This document shows, piece by piece, positions 46,333-57,810 of a stretch of DNA of 64,000 nucleotides; position 1 is the stretch's first letter; the number at the start of each line of letters is the position of its first letter. Source of the stretch: Nitrospirota bacterium (GTDB lineage: Bacteria > Nitrospirota > Nitrospiria > SBBL01 > JAADHI01); contig JAJDBU010000072.1 in the NCBI GenBank assembly GCA_029261195.1, forward strand, positions 16,168-80,167. The letters are read 5' to 3'. A program made the position numbers and the translations under genes. The notes beneath the pieces are model-generated. The model was not told where the DNA came from, ran no database searches, and saw nothing but the letters and a program-made list of their open reading frames with translations.

Positions 46333-48987
46333 ATGTATAAATCAATCTATATTCCGGTAGATAACTCAGACTATTCAAATACGGCCATTGATATTGGGAT
46401 GATGCTGGCAAAGCAGTACGGTTCAAAGGTTATTGGAAGCCATGCCTACGCGGCAAAACTGCATGACAAACGTTTCAAGCAAATGGAGGCAGGATTACCG
46501 GAAGAGTACCACGATGAAAATGAGCTGGAACGCCAGCGCAAAATACACGACTCCCTGATTACCCGTGGTCTTGAAATCATCACCGATTCCTATCTCGACA
46601 TCATTGATCAAAAGGCGAATGAGAGCAATGTGCCCATGGAACGGGTGTCCCTGGAGGGAAAAAACTACAAAGTCCTCGTCCAGGACATCGTCAAGAATGG
46701 ATATGATCTGGTTATTTTGGGCGCACTCGGCGTCGGAGCCGTGAGAGAAAGCATGATCGGGAGTGTTTGCGAACGCACGATTCGAAGGGTGCGGAAGTCC
46801 GATATCTTTGTGGTCAAAGAAACCACGGCACCAAAGCCCGGAGAGATGGGGAAAATCGTTGTTGCCATTGATGGCAGTCACCATTCCTTCGGCGGTTTCA
46901 AAACCGCGCTTGCGCTGGCAAAGACCTACAAACTGGAAATGGACGTGATTTCCGCCTTTGATCCCTACTATCATTATGCTGTTTTCAATTCGATCTCCGG
47001 GGTATTGAACGAAGAGGCCGGTAAGGTTTTTCGCTTCAAAGAGCAGGAAAAACTGCATGAAGAGGTGATTGATTCAGGACTCGCGAAGATTTATCAATCT
47101 CACTTGGAAGTCTGCAAAAAATTGGCTGAAGATGCAGAAGTGAAGATTAATACCTCCCTCTTAGATGGAAAACCCTTCGAAAAGGTGTTGCAATATGTCA
47201 AGAAGGAAAGACCTTGGTTGCTCGTGCTCGGTCGGATCGGCGTTCATTCCGATGAAGAGATGGATGTCGGGAGCAACGCTGAAAATCTGATCCGGATGGC
47301 ACCCTGTAATGTTCTGGTTTCCAACAAAACCTACGTCCCGCCGATCGACGCGATTGCAGAATACACGGTTGCCTGGACAGAAGAAGCCTCCAAACGGATG
47401 GAAAAGGTGCCGATCTTTGCGCGAGGCGTTGCCAAGACAGCGGTCTATCGTTATGCGATTGAGAAAGGTTATTCCATTATTACTAACTCGGTTGTTGACG
47501 GTGCGATGGGGGATATCCTTCCGAAATCAGCTGTGGACATGATGAAAAATATTGGAAAAACCCTGGATGAAAAGGGAATCGACCGGGACAAGATGACTTC
47601 TGAAGACAGTGTTTCCGAAACCCTTAAAGGCTCGGGTATCGCCGGCATGATGACGCAGATCGTCGGTGATCGTGATGTCGAACGTGCGGCGAGCTATGAC
47701 GACAAGGCCAAGCTGGATTTTTATCTCTGTAAGGGTTGTGGTTATACGGCAAAAGGGGATCAACCTGTCGAATGTCCTGTTTGTGGCGTAAAGGGCGATC
47801 AATTCCAGTTCATTGATAAATCACTCTTCGAAGCGGCGGCAAAAGCTGAAGGCGGCGTTTCTACAGAAGTCGGTTATGACGGTGTGCCGCTGAACTGGAC
47901 TGAAGATGCCAAAAACATCCTCCGGAAAAACCCTGCGGGATTTGAACGGCGTCGTGCCAAAGCAAAGGTTGAAAAAACGGCCCGGAAGATGGGCTTTCAG
48001 ACGATCTCAAAAGATTTTGCCGTTCGTATTCTTGAAGGCTCGGATTGGGAGGAAATGATGGCTTCCGGTGATGCTCAACAAGCAGAAGATGTGCCCGCCG
48101 CCACTCCAGCAACCCCTCACTTCACTTACAGTGATGAGGCCCAGGCGCGCCTTGAACGGGTGCCTGTGGGTTTCATGCGGGACGCGACGCGTCAGCACGT
48201 TGAAAATCATGCCTTCGCTCAATCAATCAGCCACATCACGCTTGAAGTGGCTGAAGCCGGAATTGCGAAAGCGACGGAGGAGATGACGGCTGTTATGTCA
48301 GGGGCTGAAAGTATCGAGGAAATCAGGAAGAAGATGGCAGCCATGGCCATCGGAAGTGAGCCGACTTTGAAAAAAGAACCGACTAGCTTCCACTTTTGCG
48401 GAATGTGCGGTCACGTCGCAAAAAAAGTGCCCGACAACTGTCCTGTTTGTGATGCGAAGAAGTCTCGATTTATGCTGATGAATGCAGCAAGTGATTATTT
48501 TATCTGCATGGTTTGTAGTCTCGTTGTGGAAGAGGTGGTGCCTGAGCATTGTTCGCTCTGCGGTGCAAATGGCGAATATCACATCCAACTTGAACGGAAA
48601 GAAAGTCCTATAGAACAAGCGCTTGAAGCGATTGCCTGGACTGACGAAGCCAAAGCCATGTTACAAGAGATTCCCGAAGGCTTTATGCGCGAGATGACGC
48701 ATTGGCGTATTGAAGCCGACGCAAGAAAAAAAGGCTTACCTGAAATCGATCCCTCTGTGATTCAGGCGAAGTACCTTCAGTGGAGCCAGGTTTCTCGGCA
48801 GGTTGAGCGGCGCCTCCCCTGGGATGATGAGGCTATCCGTCGTATGAATCTGATCCCTTCCTTTGTTCGCGGGACGGTTGTCGGGGAGATTGAAGCTCAT
48901 GCCGAAGAGCAAAAACTGACACAGGTCACTGCTGAGATTTTAGATCAAGTGACTGCGCAGTGGGCAGAGGCAATGCGCGGGTTTTAA
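46333..48987 (+). CDS. Usp-Usp-PCP_red/rubredoxin mosaic protein
   Basis: 884 residues from the ATG behind AGGGAG; the ORF-track start is 14 codons early. Two Usp domains (2-163, 171-332) are followed by five PCP_red-like domains (348-392, 522-567, 599-645, 769-818, 830-873), each of the form W-x2-[ED]A-x2-[RM][LM]-x3-P-x-[GF]-x-R. Three rubredoxin-like CX2C...CX2C knuckles are interleaved (C466/469/481/484, C689/692/703/706, C725/728/740/743), as in rubrerythrins. There is no signal peptide or membrane segment, so it is cytosolic. PCP_red is known as the C-terminal domain of protochlorophyllide reductase BchB, but no nitrogenase-like reductase subunit is nearby. The function is unknown; an iron-loaded redox sensor, scaffold or electron carrier is possible. 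Confidence 0.85.
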   Translation: MYKSIYIPVDNSDYSNTAIDIGMMLAKQYGSKVIGSHAYAAKLHDKRFKQMEAGLPEEYHDENELERQRKIHDSLITRGLEIITDSYLDIIDQKANESNVPMERVSLEGKNYKVLVQDIVKNGYDLVILGALGVGAVRESMIGSVCERTIRRVRKSDIFVVKETTAPKPGEMGKIVVAIDGSHHSFGGFKTALALAKTYKLEMDVISAFDPYYHYAVFNSISGVLNEEAGKVFRFKEQEKLHEEVIDSGLAKIYQSHLEVCKKLAEDAEVKINTSLLDGKPFEKVLQYVKKERPWLLVLGRIGVHSDEEMDVGSNAENLIRMAPCNVLVSNKTYVPPIDAIAEYTVAWTEEASKRMEKVPIFARGVAKTAVYRYAIEKGYSIITNSVVDGAMGDILPKSAVDMMKNIGKTLDEKGIDRDKMTSEDSVSETLKGSGIAGMMTQIVGDRDVERAASYDDKAKLDFYLCKGCGYTAKGDQPVECPVCGVKGDQFQFIDKSLFEAAAKAEGGVSTEVGYDGVPLNWTEDAKNILRKNPAGFERRRAKAKVEKTARKMGFQTISKDFAVRILEGSDWEEMMASGDAQQAEDVPAATPATPHFTYSDEAQARLERVPVGFMRDATRQHVENHAFAQSISHITLEVAEAGIAKATEEMTAVMSGAESIEEIRKKMAAMAIGSEPTLKKEPTSFHFCGMCGHVAKKVPDNCPVCDAKKSRFMLMNAASDYFICMVCSLVVEEVVPEHCSLCGANGEYHIQLERKESPIEQALEAIAWTDEAKAMLQEIPEGFMREMTHWRIEADARKKGLPEIDPSVIQAKYLQWSQVSRQVERRLPWDDEAIRRMNLIPSFVRGTVVGEIEAHAEEQKLTQVTAEILDQVTAQWAEAMRGF

Positions 48988-49086: not shown

Positions 49087-50475
49087 ATGGCCTACCAGGC
49101 CTACTCGATCTCCTGGAATCTGACGCAGCGCTGCAATCTTTTCTGTACGCACTGCTACCTCAGTGCATTTCCAGGTGCCGATACCTCGAATGAATTGAGT
49201 ACGGAAGAATGTTTCAGGGTGATGGATGACATTGCCAAGGTCAATCCGGATGTCTTCATGATCCTTACAGGTGGGGAGCCTCTGGTTCGTAAAGATATAT
49301 TCGATATTGCCGCCTATGGCTCCGACAAGGGCTTCACTTGTGTTCTCGGAACGAATGGGGTTCTGGTTGGAAAAACGGAAGCTCGCAAGATGCGGGAAAG
49401 TGGACTGATGGGGGCTTCAATCAGTCTTGACTCGGTCGATCCCGTCAAACACGATCAATTTCGTCAGCTTCAAGGCTCCTGGAGAAATGCTCTGCGTGGC
49501 ATTGAGTATCTCAAAGAGGAAGGTCTTGATTTTTCCATCCATATGAGTGTGATGGATTGGAATGTCAGTGAAATTCCTAAGATGGTCGAATTGTCCCGAA
49601 AACTCGGGGCCAAAATCCTCAACTTCTTTTTTCTTATTCAGACCGGTCGCGCCGAAGGCATTATTGATATCGATCCGCGTCAATATAGAGAGATTCTGAC
49701 CTATCTCGCCCGGATGCAGGGTGTTGGCTCACAAGACGCGAACAGCAACGCACAGATCTTGACGCAATATGATGACCCCTGGACGGTTTCTGCCGGTCAA
49801 AACGATGGTCTGATTATCCGGGCAAAATGTGCCCCACACTTTCGACGCATCATCTATGAACTAGATCCGAATTCTCAATTACTGAAAAACTACGCACAGG
49901 GAAGCTGCCCTGCAGGCAAACATTATTGCCGCATCACTCCCACTGGAGAGATCACGCCCTGTCCCTATATGCCGGTGACGGCGGGAAACCTGAGAGAACA
50001 ATCCTTCGATGATATTTGGTACAACTCGCCGGTACTCAATGATCTGAGAGACCCCAATCTGGGTGGACGCTGCGGAGACTGTGAATTTTCAGAGATGTGC
50101 AGCGGCTGTCGTTGTCGCGCTTATGCGGTGCATGAAGATTATCTTGCGGAAGATGCCGCCTGCGATTATCAACCGGGACAATATGGGGGAAAGAAGATCC
50201 GGATGGATGCTTCACAAACCTTCGGCTTGGAACTGAAAACCACCCTGCCCTGGGATGATGCTGCGCGTGAACGATTAAAAGGTCTGCCCTCTTTTGCCCG
50301 AGGCATGGTTGCGCGAGGTGTGGAGCAGTATGCCACAGACAATAAGATTGAATTGATTACCGTGGACGTCATGAAGGTTGTTCGAGAGCGGGCTGAGGCT
50401 CGTATGGGACGTCGTTTTAACTTTACTGAATTTAATCGGAGCGTTTCAGAAAAAACAACTCCGAACAAGAACTGA
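49087..50475 (+). CDS. Radical SAM/SPASM enzyme with C-terminal PCP_red domain
   Basis: 462 residues. The radical SAM cluster is CNLFCTHC (C16, C20, C23), with LTGGEP for SAM binding. The segment NFFFLIQTGRAEG resembles the AhbC/AhbD/NirJ haem-modifying group. A SPASM-like Cys set for auxiliary Fe-S clusters lies at 274-359 (CPAGKHYC, CPYMP, CGDCEFSEMCSGCRC). Residues 388-435 are one PCP_red domain (PWDDAARERLKGLPSFARG). It probably modifies a tetrapyrrole or a peptide; which is unknown. Its PCP_red tail ties it to the genes on both sides. GAAAGG precedes the ATG. Confidence 0.85.
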   Translation: MAYQAYSISWNLTQRCNLFCTHCYLSAFPGADTSNELSTEECFRVMDDIAKVNPDVFMILTGGEPLVRKDIFDIAAYGSDKGFTCVLGTNGVLVGKTEARKMRESGLMGASISLDSVDPVKHDQFRQLQGSWRNALRGIEYLKEEGLDFSIHMSVMDWNVSEIPKMVELSRKLGAKILNFFFLIQTGRAEGIIDIDPRQYREILTYLARMQGVGSQDANSNAQILTQYDDPWTVSAGQNDGLIIRAKCAPHFRRIIYELDPNSQLLKNYAQGSCPAGKHYCRITPTGEITPCPYMPVTAGNLREQSFDDIWYNSPVLNDLRDPNLGGRCGDCEFSEMCSGCRCRAYAVHEDYLAEDAACDYQPGQYGGKKIRMDASQTFGLELKTTLPWDDAARERLKGLPSFARGMVARGVEQYATDNKIELITVDVMKVVRERAEARMGRRFNFTEFNRSVSEKTTPNKN

Positions 50476-50488
50476 AAGGCCGTCTGCT

Positions 50489-51487
50489 ATGTTTGGATCA
50501 AAACAAAAAGAGAACGAAAATCCGATTACCTGGACACCTGAGGCGGAGATACGTTTAAAAAAAGCCCCCTTCTTCCTACGTAAAATGGTCCGGAATCTAT
50601 CGGAGAAAAAGGCTGCCGAATTGGGGATCACAGTGATTACGGAAGAGGTTCTTGCACAATTTAAAGACAAGATGATGACGCCGATGGCGAATGAAGGGAC
50701 GACTGCGGTTCATGAAACCGCGGGAGTCGAAACAAAAGCGCTCGCCTGGACCCGAGAAGCCCAGGAAAGGCTGGACACTGTTCCGGAATTTATGCGGTCC
50801 ATGATTAAAAAGATTGCAGAAGAGGTCGCCCTCGAACGTGGGCACCTTGAAGTGGACATGGACCTGCTCAAAAAAGCAGAGGAGCTGGGAGAGAAAACGG
50901 AAGATCAGACTCGACCTGAGATTGAATGGACCGATGCCGCAAAACTACGACTTGAACAAAAAATTGCAGAATCTCCGGAGATGGCCCGTAACTTCGTTCT
51001 GGATATGTTAAAAAATGACGCCGAAGATCTTGCTCTGGAAATGGGAATCACTCGAATCGATCTGGCTGCAGCAACACAGATTTGGGATGCGCCGAAATCG
51101 GATGTCGCATGGAGTGAAGAAGCCAGAAAACGCCTCATGACCTCTCCCGACTTTGTTCGGAGCGGCATCAAAAAGGCGGCGGAACGGCGAGCCCGAAAAC
51201 TGGGTGTCACGACGGTGACTTCAGAACTACTGACCAAGTTTCGCAATGAAGCCATGATGAAGGCGATGAAACGGCTCCGCGTCTACGGATATGATGAAAT
51301 GACCTTTGATGCCTTTGAAGACGCAAAGGAAAAGACCCCACGACTCAAAGACAATACAGAGGCCGCAAAACGTTTGGATGACATTAAATGTTACATGGAA
51401 AACAAAGGGGACATTGGACTGATCGATGAAGAGATGCTTGATCGTATGAAGGATTATTTAAAAGATCCTTCAAAGAAAAAGATGTAG
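50489..51487 (+). CDS. Tandem PCP_red protein (four copies)
   Basis: 332 residues from the ATG 13 bp after the radical SAM stop; the ORF-track start lies inside that gene and is wrong. Four PCP_red-like domains fill most of it (15-58, 87-130, 147-197, 208-252), each beginning W-[TS]-x2-A and ending with a GIT-like strand and a helix. The third has a 5-residue insertion. The last 80 residues are a charged helical tail. There is only one Cys, no rubredoxin knuckle, no signal peptide and no catalytic motif that I can see. It looks like a scaffold or binding protein. I know of no characterised protein made only of this domain. Confidence 0.8.
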   Translation: MFGSKQKENENPITWTPEAEIRLKKAPFFLRKMVRNLSEKKAAELGITVITEEVLAQFKDKMMTPMANEGTTAVHETAGVETKALAWTREAQERLDTVPEFMRSMIKKIAEEVALERGHLEVDMDLLKKAEELGEKTEDQTRPEIEWTDAAKLRLEQKIAESPEMARNFVLDMLKNDAEDLALEMGITRIDLAAATQIWDAPKSDVAWSEEARKRLMTSPDFVRSGIKKAAERRARKLGVTTVTSELLTKFRNEAMMKAMKRLRVYGYDEMTFDAFEDAKEKTPRLKDNTEAAKRLDDIKCYMENKGDIGLIDEEMLDRMKDYLKDPSKKKM

Positions 51488-51518: not shown

Positions 51519-51977
51519 ATGAATTTTTCCGCCGTCATCGCGCATTGGTTGCATCTCATGTCGGCTATTATCTGGATCGGAGCAGCGGCCTATCAGGTCT
51601 TTGTTCTGGGTCCCCTGATCAAAAAGGGAACCCTTCCTAAAGCGATGGTTGCATCGCTTGCAAAGCGTTATCGCCATGTCTCTCTGACGACCTTGCTTGT
51701 CCTGGTCGTGACAGGGGGAATTAATCTCAAGACCCGCCGTCTGGGATTCGATTCGGTGCCGGGCGGTTATATTTCCGCGCTTGCTGTTAAGGTTTTTATT
51801 GCCGTGGCCATGGCTTCGGGCCTGGTTTTCGGCATGATCCGTTCTTCGAATAAATACGATGATGAATTGAAGAAGGAGGACGGCCCTCCGAACTTCGGCG
51901 CTAATAAAGTGACCCTTGCTATGGGTACCATCGTGATCTTTCTTGCCGCCATGCTGAGACAGTGGGTATCAGAGTAA
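51519..51977 (+). CDS. CopD-like four-helix membrane protein
   Basis: 152 residues behind GGGAG. Four hydrophobic helices, the first with H-x2-H-L (AHWLHLMSAIIWIG) as in the CopD superfamily and related haem-b or copper membrane proteins. Helix 2 holds RYRHVSLTTLLVLVVTGG. It follows the PCP_red genes by 31 bp and overlaps the next gene. Cofactor unknown; His residues could hold a haem or copper and connect the cluster to the membrane. Confidence 0.75.
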   Translation: MNFSAVIAHWLHLMSAIIWIGAAAYQVFVLGPLIKKGTLPKAMVASLAKRYRHVSLTTLLVLVVTGGINLKTRRLGFDSVPGGYISALAVKVFIAVAMASGLVFGMIRSSNKYDDELKKEDGPPNFGANKVTLAMGTIVIFLAAMLRQWVSE

Positions 51978-52609
51978 GAACGGCTTCCAATCCTCTGCAA
52001 TCGCCAGAGAGACTTTTTTTTCTACGGCAATCTATTCGATCTCTTCCGTATCTTTTTCTAAGTGTTATTCTATTCTTCTCCGTCCCTCAAACTTCTTTTG
52101 CGATCCATGCCATCATTAAAGATGGGGAGGCCGTTCCTAGAAGCTACGGTCCACTTATCCTGGGGATGTCTCTAAAATCCTTTTTGGAAACAGAGGGAGA
52201 AAAAAAGGAGCAACCTATGGCAATTGGACAGTTTGCAGATGAGCATCAATACAAACTCGCAGCCCTTCCGTCCTCTCCCGATATTTTAAACATTGTCTGT
52301 GACTTTTATCAGGGAAAGCTCTTTCGTATTGAACTGAACTATCACCCGCTTAAAACCGGAGGGGCCATTGTTCAGGAGCGCATTGATGAATGGACAATCC
52401 GATTCGGTGAACCGCGGGTCAACAATTTCCCAGACGTCCTTCTGGTCTTCTGGGACGATGGTGCCACACGAATGATCTTGCAGTCGGATGAGTCGGAGGG
52501 CTCGACCCTCTATTCCATCACCTATATTGACGATGACCTCTTTCATCTTTTTAGTCGGGAGCGGGTTCAGCGGGAGACCGCCGGTCAGTCAAATTATGGA
52601 AAAAAGTAA
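51962..52609 (+). CDS. Secreted hypothetical protein
   Basis: 215 residues from a GTG overlapping the CopD-like stop by 16 bp. A long positively charged leader and hydrophobic segment (about 27-46, ending FAIHA) suggest a signal peptide; a later start is possible. The mature part is mixed alpha/beta with one Cys and segments such as GPLILGMSLKSF and YHPLKTGGAIV. I do not recognise the family. It may belong to the same transcript as the PCP_red genes. Confidence 0.6.
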   Translation: MGIRVRTASNPLQSPERLFFLRQSIRSLPYLFLSVILFFSVPQTSFAIHAIIKDGEAVPRSYGPLILGMSLKSFLETEGEKKEQPMAIGQFADEHQYKLAALPSSPDILNIVCDFYQGKLFRIELNYHPLKTGGAIVQERIDEWTIRFGEPRVNNFPDVLLVFWDDGATRMILQSDESEGSTLYSITYIDDDLFHLFSRERVQRETAGQSNYGKK

Positions 52610-52785: not shown

Positions 52786-53400
52786 ATGGAAAAATACCGA
52801 GTCTTACCAGGTCCGGAGGCTTTTTTGCCGCCTGCAGCAGCCTGCGCCGGGGTGGTCCTTCCCGATCCGGGTCAGGGACATATCCACGGTGAAATCGTGC
52901 CGGAAGATGCGGCGATGGAGGAAGCGGCCAAACGCTTTTTGTCTGCCAAAGTGCCGACAATTTTCCCTGGTCCGCTAGTCCTTTGGGGATGGAATGAAAA
53001 TGCAGAACAAAAGGCGACTGCGATCAAGGCCCTTTATGATGTCTTGAAATCTCATAACAACGGGGCATTGCTTATACCAATGCCCGACTATCGTCCGAAA
53101 TATCCAAAAATCGATCCGGAAATTGAAATCAATCCAAACCACCCAAACCTGACCATTTGGCACAACAAAATTGATGTCTGCATGTTTGTCGGTGTGCATT
53201 GCCATCAGGCGAATATGTCCCTGAAAATTATTCGAGGGGGGACGAGTTGTTACACCATTGCAATGTGTGCACAGGCCGGTCATGAGGATGCGATGATCAC
53301 ATTTCGGGATGCGACGCCGGAAAAGATTATGAAACTTGTTGACGCTGTTAAACGCCTTAAGGATTCCGGCGCGTCGAATGACGTGAGGGGTACCGCTTAA
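52786..53400 (+). CDS. Accessory subunit of 2-oxoacid:ferredoxin oxidoreductase (CdhB-like)
   Basis: 204 residues behind GGAGG. It resembles the small carbon monoxide dehydrogenase beta-subunit-like family (GPEAFLPPAAACAG, TIFPGPLVLWGW, NKIDVCMFVGVHCHQANMSLKIIRGGT), which accompanies five-subunit POR/OGOR enzymes of Aquificales and Nitrospira. CdhB-type proteins have a DHS-like fold, so it may bind a nucleotide or help assembly. It is first in the operon and would correspond to the E subunit. Confidence 0.75.
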   Translation: MEKYRVLPGPEAFLPPAAACAGVVLPDPGQGHIHGEIVPEDAAMEEAAKRFLSAKVPTIFPGPLVLWGWNENAEQKATAIKALYDVLKSHNNGALLIPMPDYRPKYPKIDPEIEINPNHPNLTIWHNKIDVCMFVGVHCHQANMSLKIIRGGTSCYTIAMCAQAGHEDAMITFRDATPEKIMKLVDAVKRLKDSGASNDVRGTA

Positions 53401-53449
53401 GTTCAACATCGTTATTAATATAAACGCCAGATGAAATACGAAAGGGGGA

Positions 53450-54652
53450 ATGATGAGTTCAAAATCTCTGATCGGTACCGTTAATAAAAAAGGGCAAAAA
53501 ATCGTCGATCCTGAGTACCTCTTCAATGAGGCACCCAGGGAACGCTTCTTTATGACTGGAAGTGAGGTCGTCAAAGAAGCCATCCGACGGGCAAGTGTCG
53601 ACATCTCTGTTTCCTACCCGATTACCCCGCAAAGTGAGGCAGCAGCATTGGTTGGGGAACTCTGGGTGGAAGGCTATGTGGGTGACTACTTTCGAGGCGA
53701 GAATGAATTCGCAGTGATGTCTGAGTGTGCCGGTGCTTCTTTTGGTGGTGCGAGGGTTTTCACAACGACTTCCGGACCGGGCACCCTTCGAGCCTACGAA
53801 AACTTTCCGATGTGGGTTGGCTCGCGACTTCCCATCATGATTAACTTCATGGTGAGAGGGGTTAACTCTCCCTTAAGTATTCAGCCCGACACCCTGGAAA
53901 TCGGCCTGGTCATTGACACCGGGATGTTGATATGGCACGCCGAAACGGCTCAGGAGTTCTACGACTACCTCCTCAAAGGCTTTCTGGTTGCCGAGGAGCC
54001 GGATGTTCATCTACCCATTGCGATTTGTATTGATGGCTTCTTTGTCAGCCATACGAAGGATGACGTCATGATTACGCCGATAGATATGGCGATTCCTCCC
54101 TATGATCCCTATCGTTCGCCGGTACCCTGCATGGACATGGAGGTTCCTCCGGTTCGGATGATGCGTGATCCCTTTGTCATGAAAAGTAACTACATCAGCT
54201 ATGCAACCCAGGCCAGCTGGCAGCAGGAAACCCGTGCCGCCTGTGAGCGTTCCAGAAAACATACCGTCCGTCTTCTGGGAGGATTAATCGAAGAGGACCG
54301 TAGCGATGCTGAAATCCTGATTGTTTCTTCAGGGACGGCTCTGGCTCAGGGACGTGAAGCTGCACGGATTTTGGCAAAGGAAGGGATTCGGGTGGGCACG
54401 GTGAAGATTAAAACCATTCGTCCATTTCCCACAGAAGAAATTCGACAGGCTACCAAAAACGCCCGTTTGATCTTTGTCCCGGAATTCAATGTGGTGGGCT
54501 GGATGGCGAGAGAAATTAAGGCCTGCATTCCAGATAACCATCGTGTGATAGCAGGACCCCATGTGGCAGGTGGAATGACCTTGCCGCCGGAGGTCATCGT
54601 GGACGAGATCAAAAAAGTCCTTGCGAAGAATAAGGAGGCCATTCATGGATAA
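53450..54652 (+). CDS. 2-Oxoacid:ferredoxin oxidoreductase, alpha subunit
   Basis: 400 residues; ATGATG follows AAAGGGGGA, so either codon may start. FMTGSEVVKEAIRRASVDISVSYPITPQSEAA and FTTTSGPGT are alpha-subunit motifs, and the C-terminal third carries the transketolase-like domain ILIVSSGTALAQGREAA. With beta, gamma and delta it forms or cleaves pyruvate or 2-oxoglutarate with low-potential ferredoxin, a key reverse-TCA step. Sequence alone does not tell which acid is used. Confidence 0.93.
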   Translation: MMSSKSLIGTVNKKGQKIVDPEYLFNEAPRERFFMTGSEVVKEAIRRASVDISVSYPITPQSEAAALVGELWVEGYVGDYFRGENEFAVMSECAGASFGGARVFTTTSGPGTLRAYENFPMWVGSRLPIMINFMVRGVNSPLSIQPDTLEIGLVIDTGMLIWHAETAQEFYDYLLKGFLVAEEPDVHLPIAICIDGFFVSHTKDDVMITPIDMAIPPYDPYRSPVPCMDMEVPPVRMMRDPFVMKSNYISYATQASWQQETRAACERSRKHTVRLLGGLIEEDRSDAEILIVSSGTALAQGREAARILAKEGIRVGTVKIKTIRPFPTEEIRQATKNARLIFVPEFNVVGWMAREIKACIPDNHRVIAGPHVAGGMTLPPEVIVDEIKKVLAKNKEAIHG

Positions 54653-55544
54653 GGAAAAGATTAAAATCAATCCGGAATTTTACGACATCATGCCGGTGGA
54701 ATATCAGGAGCTGGTCGAAAACGCAACCTACGGAAAAGAAGATCGGGGTTGGAAGGATGTCGGTTCCTCAAAAGAACTGATTGAAGAACATTCTTTGTGT
54801 GCGGGTTGTCCTGAGTCCATTGCTTTTCGGCATATCCTTGCCTCCTTGCCAAATCCTGAAGAAACGGTGATGGTCGGTTCAACGGGTTGTACCAGTCTTG
54901 TTTTCCCTCATATCGCCCTTCACAATATTCATTCCCTATTTGGAAATCAGAATGCGGTTGCCTCCGGTCTGAAGAGAGCGCTGGCTTATCGCTTCCCTGA
55001 TAAGATTAAGGATGTGGTTGTTCTTGCGGGAGATGGGGCAACGGTCGATATCGGTTTGGATATGACGCTTCAGTCCTGGTTTCGACAGGAAAAATTTGCG
55101 ACAATCTGCTTTGACAATGAACTCTACGCCAACACAGGTGGGCAGGAAAGCGGTTTGATGCAGAAAGGCTTTGTTGGAAAAATGGCTCCGGCTGGAAAGC
55201 AATTTGAGAAAGTCGACATGCCTGGGCTTGCAAAAACTTCAGGTTGCCATTACGTGGCGATGTTGACCAGCAGCAAACCGAACCGTGTGGAAAAAGTGAT
55301 ACGGAACGCCGTATTGATTGCCAGGGAAATTGGCCCGACCTATGTTCAGATCTATACGCCGTGTATCCTTGAAATTGGAAAACAGATGATGGAAGGTCTT
55401 CAGGAGATGCGAGATTCCGAAGGTCCCGGACAGCGTTTTGAATACCAGGAATTCATCACTGACGAAGCAAAGGCCTACATGGAGGCGAAGCATCCAAAAA
55501 AGAAACGAAAAAAAAAGAGAGTCGAAGAGAAAAAAGTGGACTAG
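54645..55544 (+). CDS. 2-Oxoacid:ferredoxin oxidoreductase, beta subunit (TPP-binding)
   Basis: 299 residues from the ATG with TAAGGAGG upstream, overlapping the alpha gene end by 8 bp; the ORF-track start is 8 codons early. A CAGCPE motif plus a later Cys (STGCTS) holds the proximal Fe-S cluster, and GDGATVDIG...NELYANTGGQ is the TPP/Mg site. The tail is a Lys-rich stretch (KKKRKKKR). Confidence 0.94.
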   Translation: MDKEKIKINPEFYDIMPVEYQELVENATYGKEDRGWKDVGSSKELIEEHSLCAGCPESIAFRHILASLPNPEETVMVGSTGCTSLVFPHIALHNIHSLFGNQNAVASGLKRALAYRFPDKIKDVVVLAGDGATVDIGLDMTLQSWFRQEKFATICFDNELYANTGGQESGLMQKGFVGKMAPAGKQFEKVDMPGLAKTSGCHYVAMLTSSKPNRVEKVIRNAVLIAREIGPTYVQIYTPCILEIGKQMMEGLQEMRDSEGPGQRFEYQEFITDEAKAYMEAKHPKKKRKKKRVEEKKVD

Positions 55545-55588
55545 TCGATACTCGCTGAAGATCAAACGGATAAATGAAGGAGCGATGA

Positions 55589-56275
55589 ATGAGAAGGCGT
55601 ATTAATTTACGGATGTCAGGTCTTGGAGGTCAGGGGGTAGTAACATCTGCCCATGTCCTGGCGACTGCAGCTTCCAAGGATGGGAAATTTGCGATCTCAA
55701 ATCCATTTTTCGGGGCAGAAAAAAGGATGGCGCCCGCTGAGAGTTATGTCAGGATAGGTGATGAAAAAATTTATGATCGAGGAGAACTGGTTTATCCCGA
55801 TGTCATCATGATTTTTCATCCCACCGTGATCACCATGGGAAAATGTTATACCATGCCATTCTATGATGGGATTAAAAAAGGGGGGCTTGTCATCATCAAT
55901 TCAGATAAGCCACTCCCTATTTTAGAAGAGAACCTGAAATTCCTTGAAGATCAGGAGGTGCCGATCTTCTATGTGGCGGCAACGCCCATGGCTGTTGAAG
56001 TTGCAGGTACTGAGTTGGCCACCAATATGGCCATGCTGGGAGCATTGATGGGTGCGACTGATTTGGTGACGATGGAGTCGATGGAGGCTTCTATCCGGGA
56101 TCGTTTCGGAAAAAAATATGTCGCCTCCGGTGGCACAGCAACCCTTGATGAAGCGATTAAGAAGAAGTTCGCCAAAAAAGAGCAACTTCTTGAGAAAAAT
56201 ATGGCGACGGTTCGGAAGGTTTATGATCTAGGCGCAGATTGGATCAAAACAGTTAAATCCCCCGTGTTGGTTTAG
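55589..56275 (+). CDS. 2-Oxoacid:ferredoxin oxidoreductase, gamma subunit
   Basis: 228 residues behind AAGGAG. The opening RMSGLGGQGVVTSAHVLATAA is the gamma-domain signature, followed by GAEKRMAPAESYVRI. It helps bind CoA and completes the core. Confidence 0.94.
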   Translation: MRRRINLRMSGLGGQGVVTSAHVLATAASKDGKFAISNPFFGAEKRMAPAESYVRIGDEKIYDRGELVYPDVIMIFHPTVITMGKCYTMPFYDGIKKGGLVIINSDKPLPILEENLKFLEDQEVPIFYVAATPMAVEVAGTELATNMAMLGALMGATDLVTMESMEASIRDRFGKKYVASGGTATLDEAIKKKFAKKEQLLEKNMATVRKVYDLGADWIKTVKSPVLV

Positions 56276-56630: not shown

Positions 56631-57179
56631 ATGAAGGATCAAGCTAGGGGTTCTGCCCTTATGCTTTCCCCTTGGGTTCTTATTTACATGCACAATCCAG
56701 ATTTAATCCTTTATGATGAAGACTATCAGCGTATTTTAAAGGAACTCCTAAGACTAAACCGTCTCGCCGACGCCAAGCTCTCCTTCCTTGTTGATAAAGA
56801 TGGACAGATGCTCGCATCTGTCGGCGAAACGGAGGATATCGATACCACCTCCCTTGCCTCACTGACCGCCGGTAATATCGCGGCAACTGGTGGTATGGCC
56901 AAGCTTCTTGGCGAAAAGGAGTTTTCTCTCCTTTTTCACGAAGGCGAAAAAGACAATATTCACATTTCTTTGATCGGGCAGCGGGCCATTCTTGTCGTTA
57001 TATTTGATGGCCGGTCTTCATTGGGGCTTGTTCGTCTACGAGTGAAAAAGAGCATTGTTGTTTTGACTGAAATCTTTGTGAAGGTGCTTGAGAAAATGGA
57101 GAAGCCTGATCATGCTCAGGACGGGGGCGATTTTTTTACGGAAATATCCGAAGAGGATATTGAAAACTTGTTCAGTTGA
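56631..57179 (+). CDS. Roadblock/LC7 (MglB-like) protein
   Basis: 182 residues. A roadblock fold is shown by LSFLVDKDGQMLASVGETEDIDTTSLASLTAGNIAATGGMAKLLGE, which is the MglB pattern, plus an acidic tail. MglB acts as GTPase-activating partner of MglA, encoded 43 bp downstream. The exact start is uncertain; starts at Met-11 or Met-20 would remove a hydrophobic leader unusual for MglB. Confidence 0.85.
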   Translation: MKDQARGSALMLSPWVLIYMHNPDLILYDEDYQRILKELLRLNRLADAKLSFLVDKDGQMLASVGETEDIDTTSLASLTAGNIAATGGMAKLLGEKEFSLLFHEGEKDNIHISLIGQRAILVVIFDGRSSLGLVRLRVKKSIVVLTEIFVKVLEKMEKPDHAQDGGDFFTEISEEDIENLFS

Positions 57180-57222
57180 TTCCTTAAATTAAAATACTGG
57201 GATCGTAACCCGGGAGCACAAG

Positions 57223-57810
57223 ATGTCTTTTATTAATTATTCGGCGCGTGAGATCAGTTGCAAGATTGTTTACTACGGACCCGGGCTCTGTGGGAAGACA
57301 ACAAATCTACAACATATCTACAAAAAAATTAATCCCGACAGCAAGGGGAAAATGATTTCTCTTGCAACCGAAACGGAAAGAACGCTCTTTTTTGATTTTC
57401 TCCCCCTGGCCCTAGGGACCATCAAAGGCTTCAAAGTTCGTTTTCACCTTTATACCGTTCCAGGGCAGATTTTTTATGACGCGAGTCGAAAGCTCATTCT
57501 TCGGGGAGTCGATGGTGTCATCTTTGTTGCGGACTCCCAAGTGGAACGAACCGAAGCCAACCTGGAAAGCCTGGACAACCTTTCTATCAACCTGAAGGAA
57601 CAGGGTTTTGACTTGGAAAAACTCCCCTACATCATTCAGTACAACAAACGTGACCTTCCCAATATAACTCCTGTTGACGAGATGGAGCTTACGCTGAACC
57701 CCCGAAAAGTCCCCTCGTATGCCGCGGTCGCGTCCGATGGAACGGGTGTCTTCGAAACCCTTAAAGATGTGGCCAAGTTGGTCATCATGGAGCTTAAGAA
57801 AAAGGCTTAA
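57223..57810 (+). CDS. MglA-like Ras-family GTPase
   Basis: 195 residues. The P-loop is GPGLCGKTT, switch 2 is TVPGQ in place of the usual DxxGQ, and the base-specificity motif is NKRD. All are typical of MglA. With MglB it is a polarity switch for motility or surface-apparatus placement. Its stop overlaps the convergent meaB end by 17 bp. Confidence 0.92.

Follow-up and report, generated by a model that had tools for sequence, protein, structure and literature searches.

A four-repeat PCP_red protein kept across the Nitrospiria and its possible role as an adaptor for OR-N-type bd-like oxidases

Introduction

The PCP_red domain, its fold and single stand-alone copies of it are already known. 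It forms the C-terminus of BchB/ChlB in DPOR (2KRU, 2YNM), and Asr4154 of Nostoc (2L09, 62 aa) is a stand-alone copy with a solved fold. No role assigned to the domain was found in the literature searched, in which PCP_red outside DPOR was also sought without result. The window, the whole stretch of 64,000 nucleotides analysed here, comes from a Nitrospirota genome and encodes a protein that a first-pass annotation described as little else than PCP_red repeats. This genome encodes no PF00148 (nitrogenase-like, BchB/BchN or DPOR-type) protein, so a role of PCP_red in DPOR is excluded here. What does an array of such domains do in an organism without the reductase, and what does it bind?

Domain structure and predicted fold

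The features of the four-repeat protein (4r) are as follows.

50489..51487, + strand: four-repeat PCP_red protein (4r), 332 aa (Pfam, local HMM and orthologues)
50525..50674, + strand: PCP_red repeat 1, residues 13-62 (78.9 bits, locally built HMM)
50741..50890, + strand: PCP_red repeat 2, residues 85-134 (76.2 bits, locally built HMM)
50921..51097, + strand: PCP_red repeat 3, degenerate and with an insertion, residues 145-203 (14.2 bits, locally built HMM)
51104..51253, + strand: PCP_red repeat 4, residues 206-255 (75.4 bits, locally built HMM)
51254..51484, + strand: conserved helical tail, residues 256-332 (AlphaFold2 secondary structure; repeat-4+tail fusions)

The reading frame started with ATG and had no internal stops. 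PF08369 (PCP_red) matched it in four stretches (153 bits, E 2.1e-45; curated cut-off 32.5), and no other Pfam family exceeded its cut-off (runner-up E 0.008). The chain consisted almost wholly of PCP_red units followed by 77 further residues, as the first-pass annotation had it. Three of the four copies cleared the Pfam cut-off singly. Repeat 3, which carries an eight-residue insertion and was located at residues 145-193 by the local HMM, scored 23.7 bits when scanned alone, below that cut-off, and was matched to repeats 1, 2 and 4 by profile-profile comparison (hhalign, 97.8% probability). The further claim that 4r has no cofactor-binding set of cysteines also held: the single cysteine (C301) is not conserved. 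One histidine is (H119). The net charge along the chain was not consistently positive, with −4 in repeat 2 and −5 in repeat 3.

The tail had been described as charged. This is correct as far as composition goes (47% charged residues), but the tail is also predicted to be helical by AlphaFold2, and 20 of its 77 residues are invariant across 34 orthologues. Since it recurs with repeat 4 in fusions to Usp proteins and near a bd-like oxidase gene (see below), we count the two together; judged from sequence, they are one mobile module, and the tail is more than a mere charged extension. The full-length model showed a helix-strand-helix pattern in this region. Two hidden PCP_red half-repeats in the tail were ruled out by hhalign (probability <5%) and were also disfavoured by a model of the isolated tail (pLDDT 59, no structural match).

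The AlphaFold2 model of 4r, built from 34 orthologues (pLDDT 71, pTM 0.41), showed a recurring strand-helix-helix-strand-helix pattern. This chain was neither disordered nor of an unrelated fold, the two outcomes that would have spoken against the first reading: its top PDB matches in Foldseek were 2KRU (TMt 0.75) and 2L09 (TMt 0.68), with a probability of 1.00, and ChlB of DPOR (2YNM) matched at 1.5 A over 50 columns. A sequence search agreed (phmmer against 2KRU, E 2e-6). According to the model, the units have the known PCP_red fold, while at pTM 0.41 it does not fix how the repeats are arranged relative to each other. By sequence and predicted fold, 4r thus shares its domain with BchB/ChlB, but it has four copies and neither the nitrogenase-like PF00148 body nor the equivalog score of that family. 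Asr4154 resembles 4r in lacking a reductase body but is a single copy, without a repeat array or conserved tail.

Retention and conservation

A match to 4r was present in 147 of 147 genomes of the class, here taken as Nitrospiria (E<=1e-3). Nearly all were full length with 48-82% identity, and the few shorter matches include hits split over contigs. The protein also occurred beyond the class, in one further family (f18). The class-wide retention of the array, together with the absence of PF00148 from the window's genome, supports the earlier proposal that the domain acts outside the reductase. Mean column identity was 65% in 34 orthologues. For repeats 1, 2 and 4, the nearest relative was the repeat at the same position in another species in all comparisons (102/102), which indicates that these repeats diverged before the radiation of the class and have been kept distinct since.

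Repeat 4 was the most conserved unit. In its second helix (residues 221-238), 15 of the 18 residues never vary, and these fall on all faces of the helix, beyond what a purely structural helix would need. Such near-invariance implies a binding surface, at the level of sequence, and fits the binding function of its own that the first-pass annotation had suggested for the domain.

Gene neighbourhood

The genes around 4r are listed below.

46333..48987, + strand: two Usp, three rubredoxin-like and five PCP_red domains in one chain (Pfam; order kept in order-level relatives)
49087..50475, + strand: radical SAM/SPASM protein, NirJ2/AhbD-like, with a C-terminal PCP_red (50245-50394) (domain searches, local HMM)
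51519..51977, + strand: DUF4149/CopD-like membrane protein (position kept across the taxonomic order)
51962..52609, + strand: ORF without assigned function or Pfam hit (follows in close relatives too)

Both genes upstream of 4r encode PCP_red as well. The order Usp, radical SAM, 4r, DUF4149 was kept in the taxonomic order of the window, whose relatives at that rank are genomes of Candidatus Manganitrophaceae and Troglogloeales. The Usp/rubredoxin-like/PCP_red architecture is unusual, yet it is kept within this order. In the Nitrospirales, 4r lies at another genomic place altogether.

The radical SAM neighbour contains Radical_SAM and SPASM domains and a CX3CX2C motif (CNLFCTHC). It matched NirJ2 and haem b synthase best, and it stayed below the equivalog cut-offs of the NirJ/AhbD haem families (TIGR04055, TIGR04545 and TIGR04051: 315, 300 and 190 bits against 500, 500 and 515). 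It differs from NirJ2/AhbD-like proteins (TIGR04055, TIGR04545) also in its extra C-terminal PCP_red. The substrates of NirJ/AhbD-like enzymes are tetrapyrroles.

The genome's two remaining PCP_red copies sit in one 262-aa protein whose sequence shows two CXXC pairs in a Zn-ribbon pattern; its gene is flanked by one for an Mrp/NUBPL ATPase and one for a CADD/PqqC-like protein. In three families (f7, f8, f9), the same trio (Mrp, Zn-ribbon/2xPCP_red, CADD-like) is followed directly by 4r, and in f8 the two gene groups adjoin each other, with a cytochrome c/EB_dh protein, a thioredoxin-like protein and DUF420 encoded alongside. The genes thus travel as one system.

Several other genes were seen in passing. 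In deep Nitrospirota lineages, the radical-SAM/PCP_red gene is followed by a protein of about 240 aa without Pfam or NCBIfam hit (L107:9539-10252, L159:6559-7290, L165:3963-4637, L173:4050-4784), which is likely a further member of the PCP_red system. Two contigs of family f21 (L160, L166) carry genes for PCP_red proteins of a different kind, some 340-460 aa long and without radical SAM or Usp partners, that adjoin an HNH-type-looking gene and form a separate PCP_red lineage. In the window itself, a Roadblock/LC7 protein is encoded beside an Arf-like small GTPase (56631-57810), which recalls bacterial polarity switches, and a protein of the CO dehydrogenase/acetyl-CoA synthase epsilon family (PF02552) precedes the POR-type 2-oxoacid:ferredoxin oxidoreductase genes (52786-56275).

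Fusions in relatives

In one draft genome outside the class (G015, family f20), a single ORF of 706 aa joins the radical SAM protein to a complete 4r, tail included. It scored 339.6 bits against the 4r profile, and its repeat 1 is the PCP_red of the enzyme itself. In five genomes (G009, G019, G028, G184, G260; families f14 and f37), the Usp protein ends in a repeat-4+tail module (73-87 bits). A 199-aa protein in G014, with one PCP_red plus repeat 4 and tail, is encoded next to a bd-like oxidase. In effect, 4r is the detached form of modules that its two neighbours carry in relatives. These fusions are the strongest evidence, taken from sequence comparison, for what 4r binds. They involve both neighbours that the first-pass annotation had named for binding tests, which favours these proteins as partners of the PCP_red module over the tetrapyrroles and Fe-S proteins also listed there.

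Linkage to bd-like oxidases

The oxidases considered here are those called bd-like or OR-N CydAA' (PMC6606698, PMC12342949, PMC10839748). In this literature they are described as uncharacterised, and their composition and function as without experimental confirmation (PMC6606698, PMC12342949, PMC10839748). The bd-like gene cluster has been reported in Nitrospina and anammox bacteria as well (PMC6606698). Co-occurrence was counted across 296 genomes sampled from the phylum, 126 from the class and 170 from outside it. PCP_red was present in 126/126 and 39/170, respectively. The oxidase, searched with a reference from G244, was present in 126/126 and 20/170; each of these 20 genomes outside the class also carried PCP_red. 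Outside the class this association is strong (Fisher 1.3e-15), a value uncorrected for relatedness in counts that shared ancestry inflates.

Gene positions pointed the same way. In eight genomes from seven families outside the class (G014, G094, G155, G157, G184, G244, G246, G256), a PCP_red gene (Usp and/or radical-SAM/PCP_red, or 4r-like) lies beside the oxidase or a few genes from it, and in two more (G032, G139) the distance is about 12 kb or less. In the Nitrospirales (L277, L279, L282), the Zn-ribbon/2xPCP_red gene sits inside the oxidase operon, one gene from the bd-like oxidase, and DUF420 and a methyltransferase-like gene are found near the pair; matching coordinates place the two at a distance of about 7 kb in a further five genomes. 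PCP_red positions in GC-rich loci were taken from a whole-genome search, because longest-ORF calling misassigned small genes there. The operons of OR-N type CydAA' oxidases, known from Nitrospira and Nitrospinota, thus hold PCP_red genes.

One contig labelled Nitrospinota (L246) belongs to a genome with the full Nitrospiria PCP_red set, of the same phylum as the window. The label is probably wrong; we assigned the contig to the window's phylum because the genomes collected around it show coordinates identical to those in the first sample.

PCP_red and the OR-N oxidase both co-occur and are linked in operons, as expected of an accessory factor, although the linkage concerns PCP_red relatives of 4r and mostly not 4r itself. 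In the window's genome and in the class, 4r does not stand beside an oxidase; the link runs through its PCP_red relatives and through co-retention. Several deep lineages have the Usp protein, the radical-SAM/PCP_red protein and the oxidase without 4r, which is therefore not always needed. Four genomes (G009, G015, G209, G260) carry the Usp or radical-SAM/PCP_red pair, with no bd-like gene detected.

Proposed function and alternatives

Our working model, held with roughly even confidence, is that 4r is an adaptor in a complex of the Usp and radical-SAM proteins, and that this complex matures or services OR-N-type bd-like oxidases. It draws on the PCP_red fold, the class-wide retention, the lack of DPOR, the fusions and the linkage to oxidase operons. 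As a dedicated docking subunit built of PCP_red modules, 4r would tether the Usp/rubredoxin-like protein to the NirJ/AhbD-like radical-SAM protein via PCP_red contacts, with repeat 4 and the tail as its main grip. PCP_red itself would act through protein-protein contact. The assembly would then mature or service the haem-containing cytochrome bd-like oxidases of Nitrospirota as its presumed client, and the radical-SAM step might act on the haem or the protein of the oxidase.

A rather unlikely alternative is that the repeats bind a tetrapyrrole, such as a haem precursor or modified haem, and that 4r carries this ligand and passes it on, either to the radical-SAM protein or to the oxidase. Elsewhere, PCP_red is known from DPOR, a porphyrin reducer, the radical-SAM partner is closest to NirJ2 and haem b synthase, and haem proteins are abundant in the linked operons. 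However, 4r offers one conserved His and no conserved Cys, the fusions show closeness to proteins without calling for a bound ligand, the radical-SAM scores are far under the equivalog cut-offs, and a ferrochelatase in the window's genome makes the Ahb route unnecessary.

A bolder extension of the adaptor model, unlikely in our judgement, takes PCP_red as a plug-in docking module of an unrecognised haem-cofactor maturation machine for OR-N bd-like oxidases, a module that DPOR shares. Its parts would be the Usp/rubredoxin-like protein, the NirJ/AhbD-like radical SAM protein, 4r as scaffold, Mrp as carrier and the CADD-like protein of diiron type; its product would be a modified haem or a crosslink required by these oxidases.

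It is very improbable that 4r serves the neighbouring pyruvate/2-oxoacid:ferredoxin oxidoreductase genes, and with them CO2 fixation, instead of the oxidase. Although the POR gene set follows in the window, no POR genes were seen beside 4r in order-level relatives (L102, L126), where the genes after DUF4149 differ, and the Nitrospirales have 4r elsewhere; this reading was rejected. A histone-like, nucleic-acid-binding repeat protein is more doubtful still: Foldseek gave a weak resemblance to histone folds and to the C-terminal lids of AAA+ proteins (E of at least 0.45), two repeats are clearly negative, and the partners are enzymes and redox proteins. Scarcely credible, and rejected, is a DPOR remnant of BchB C-terminal domains drifting without function, since the loss of BchB/BchN and the degenerate repeat 3 stand against the lack of any gap in retention, the 65% column identity and repeat-specific invariant residues, a pattern of strong purifying selection.

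Discussion

Within the limited set of literature searched, no account was found of the four-repeat protein, its fusions or the oxidase link, and text searches of PMC6606698, PMC12342949 and PMC9040806 turned up nothing on radical SAM, universal stress or protochlorophyllide proteins. Here PCP_red occurs without its reductase, in four copies, and is kept throughout a class whose nitrifiers and manganese oxidisers are of global importance. Its fusions to the adjoining enzymes in relatives make its role testable by simple pull-downs. The link to the oxidase names candidate accessory factors for the OR-N bd-like oxidases, which are presumed to be the terminal oxidases of Nitrospira-type nitrifiers.
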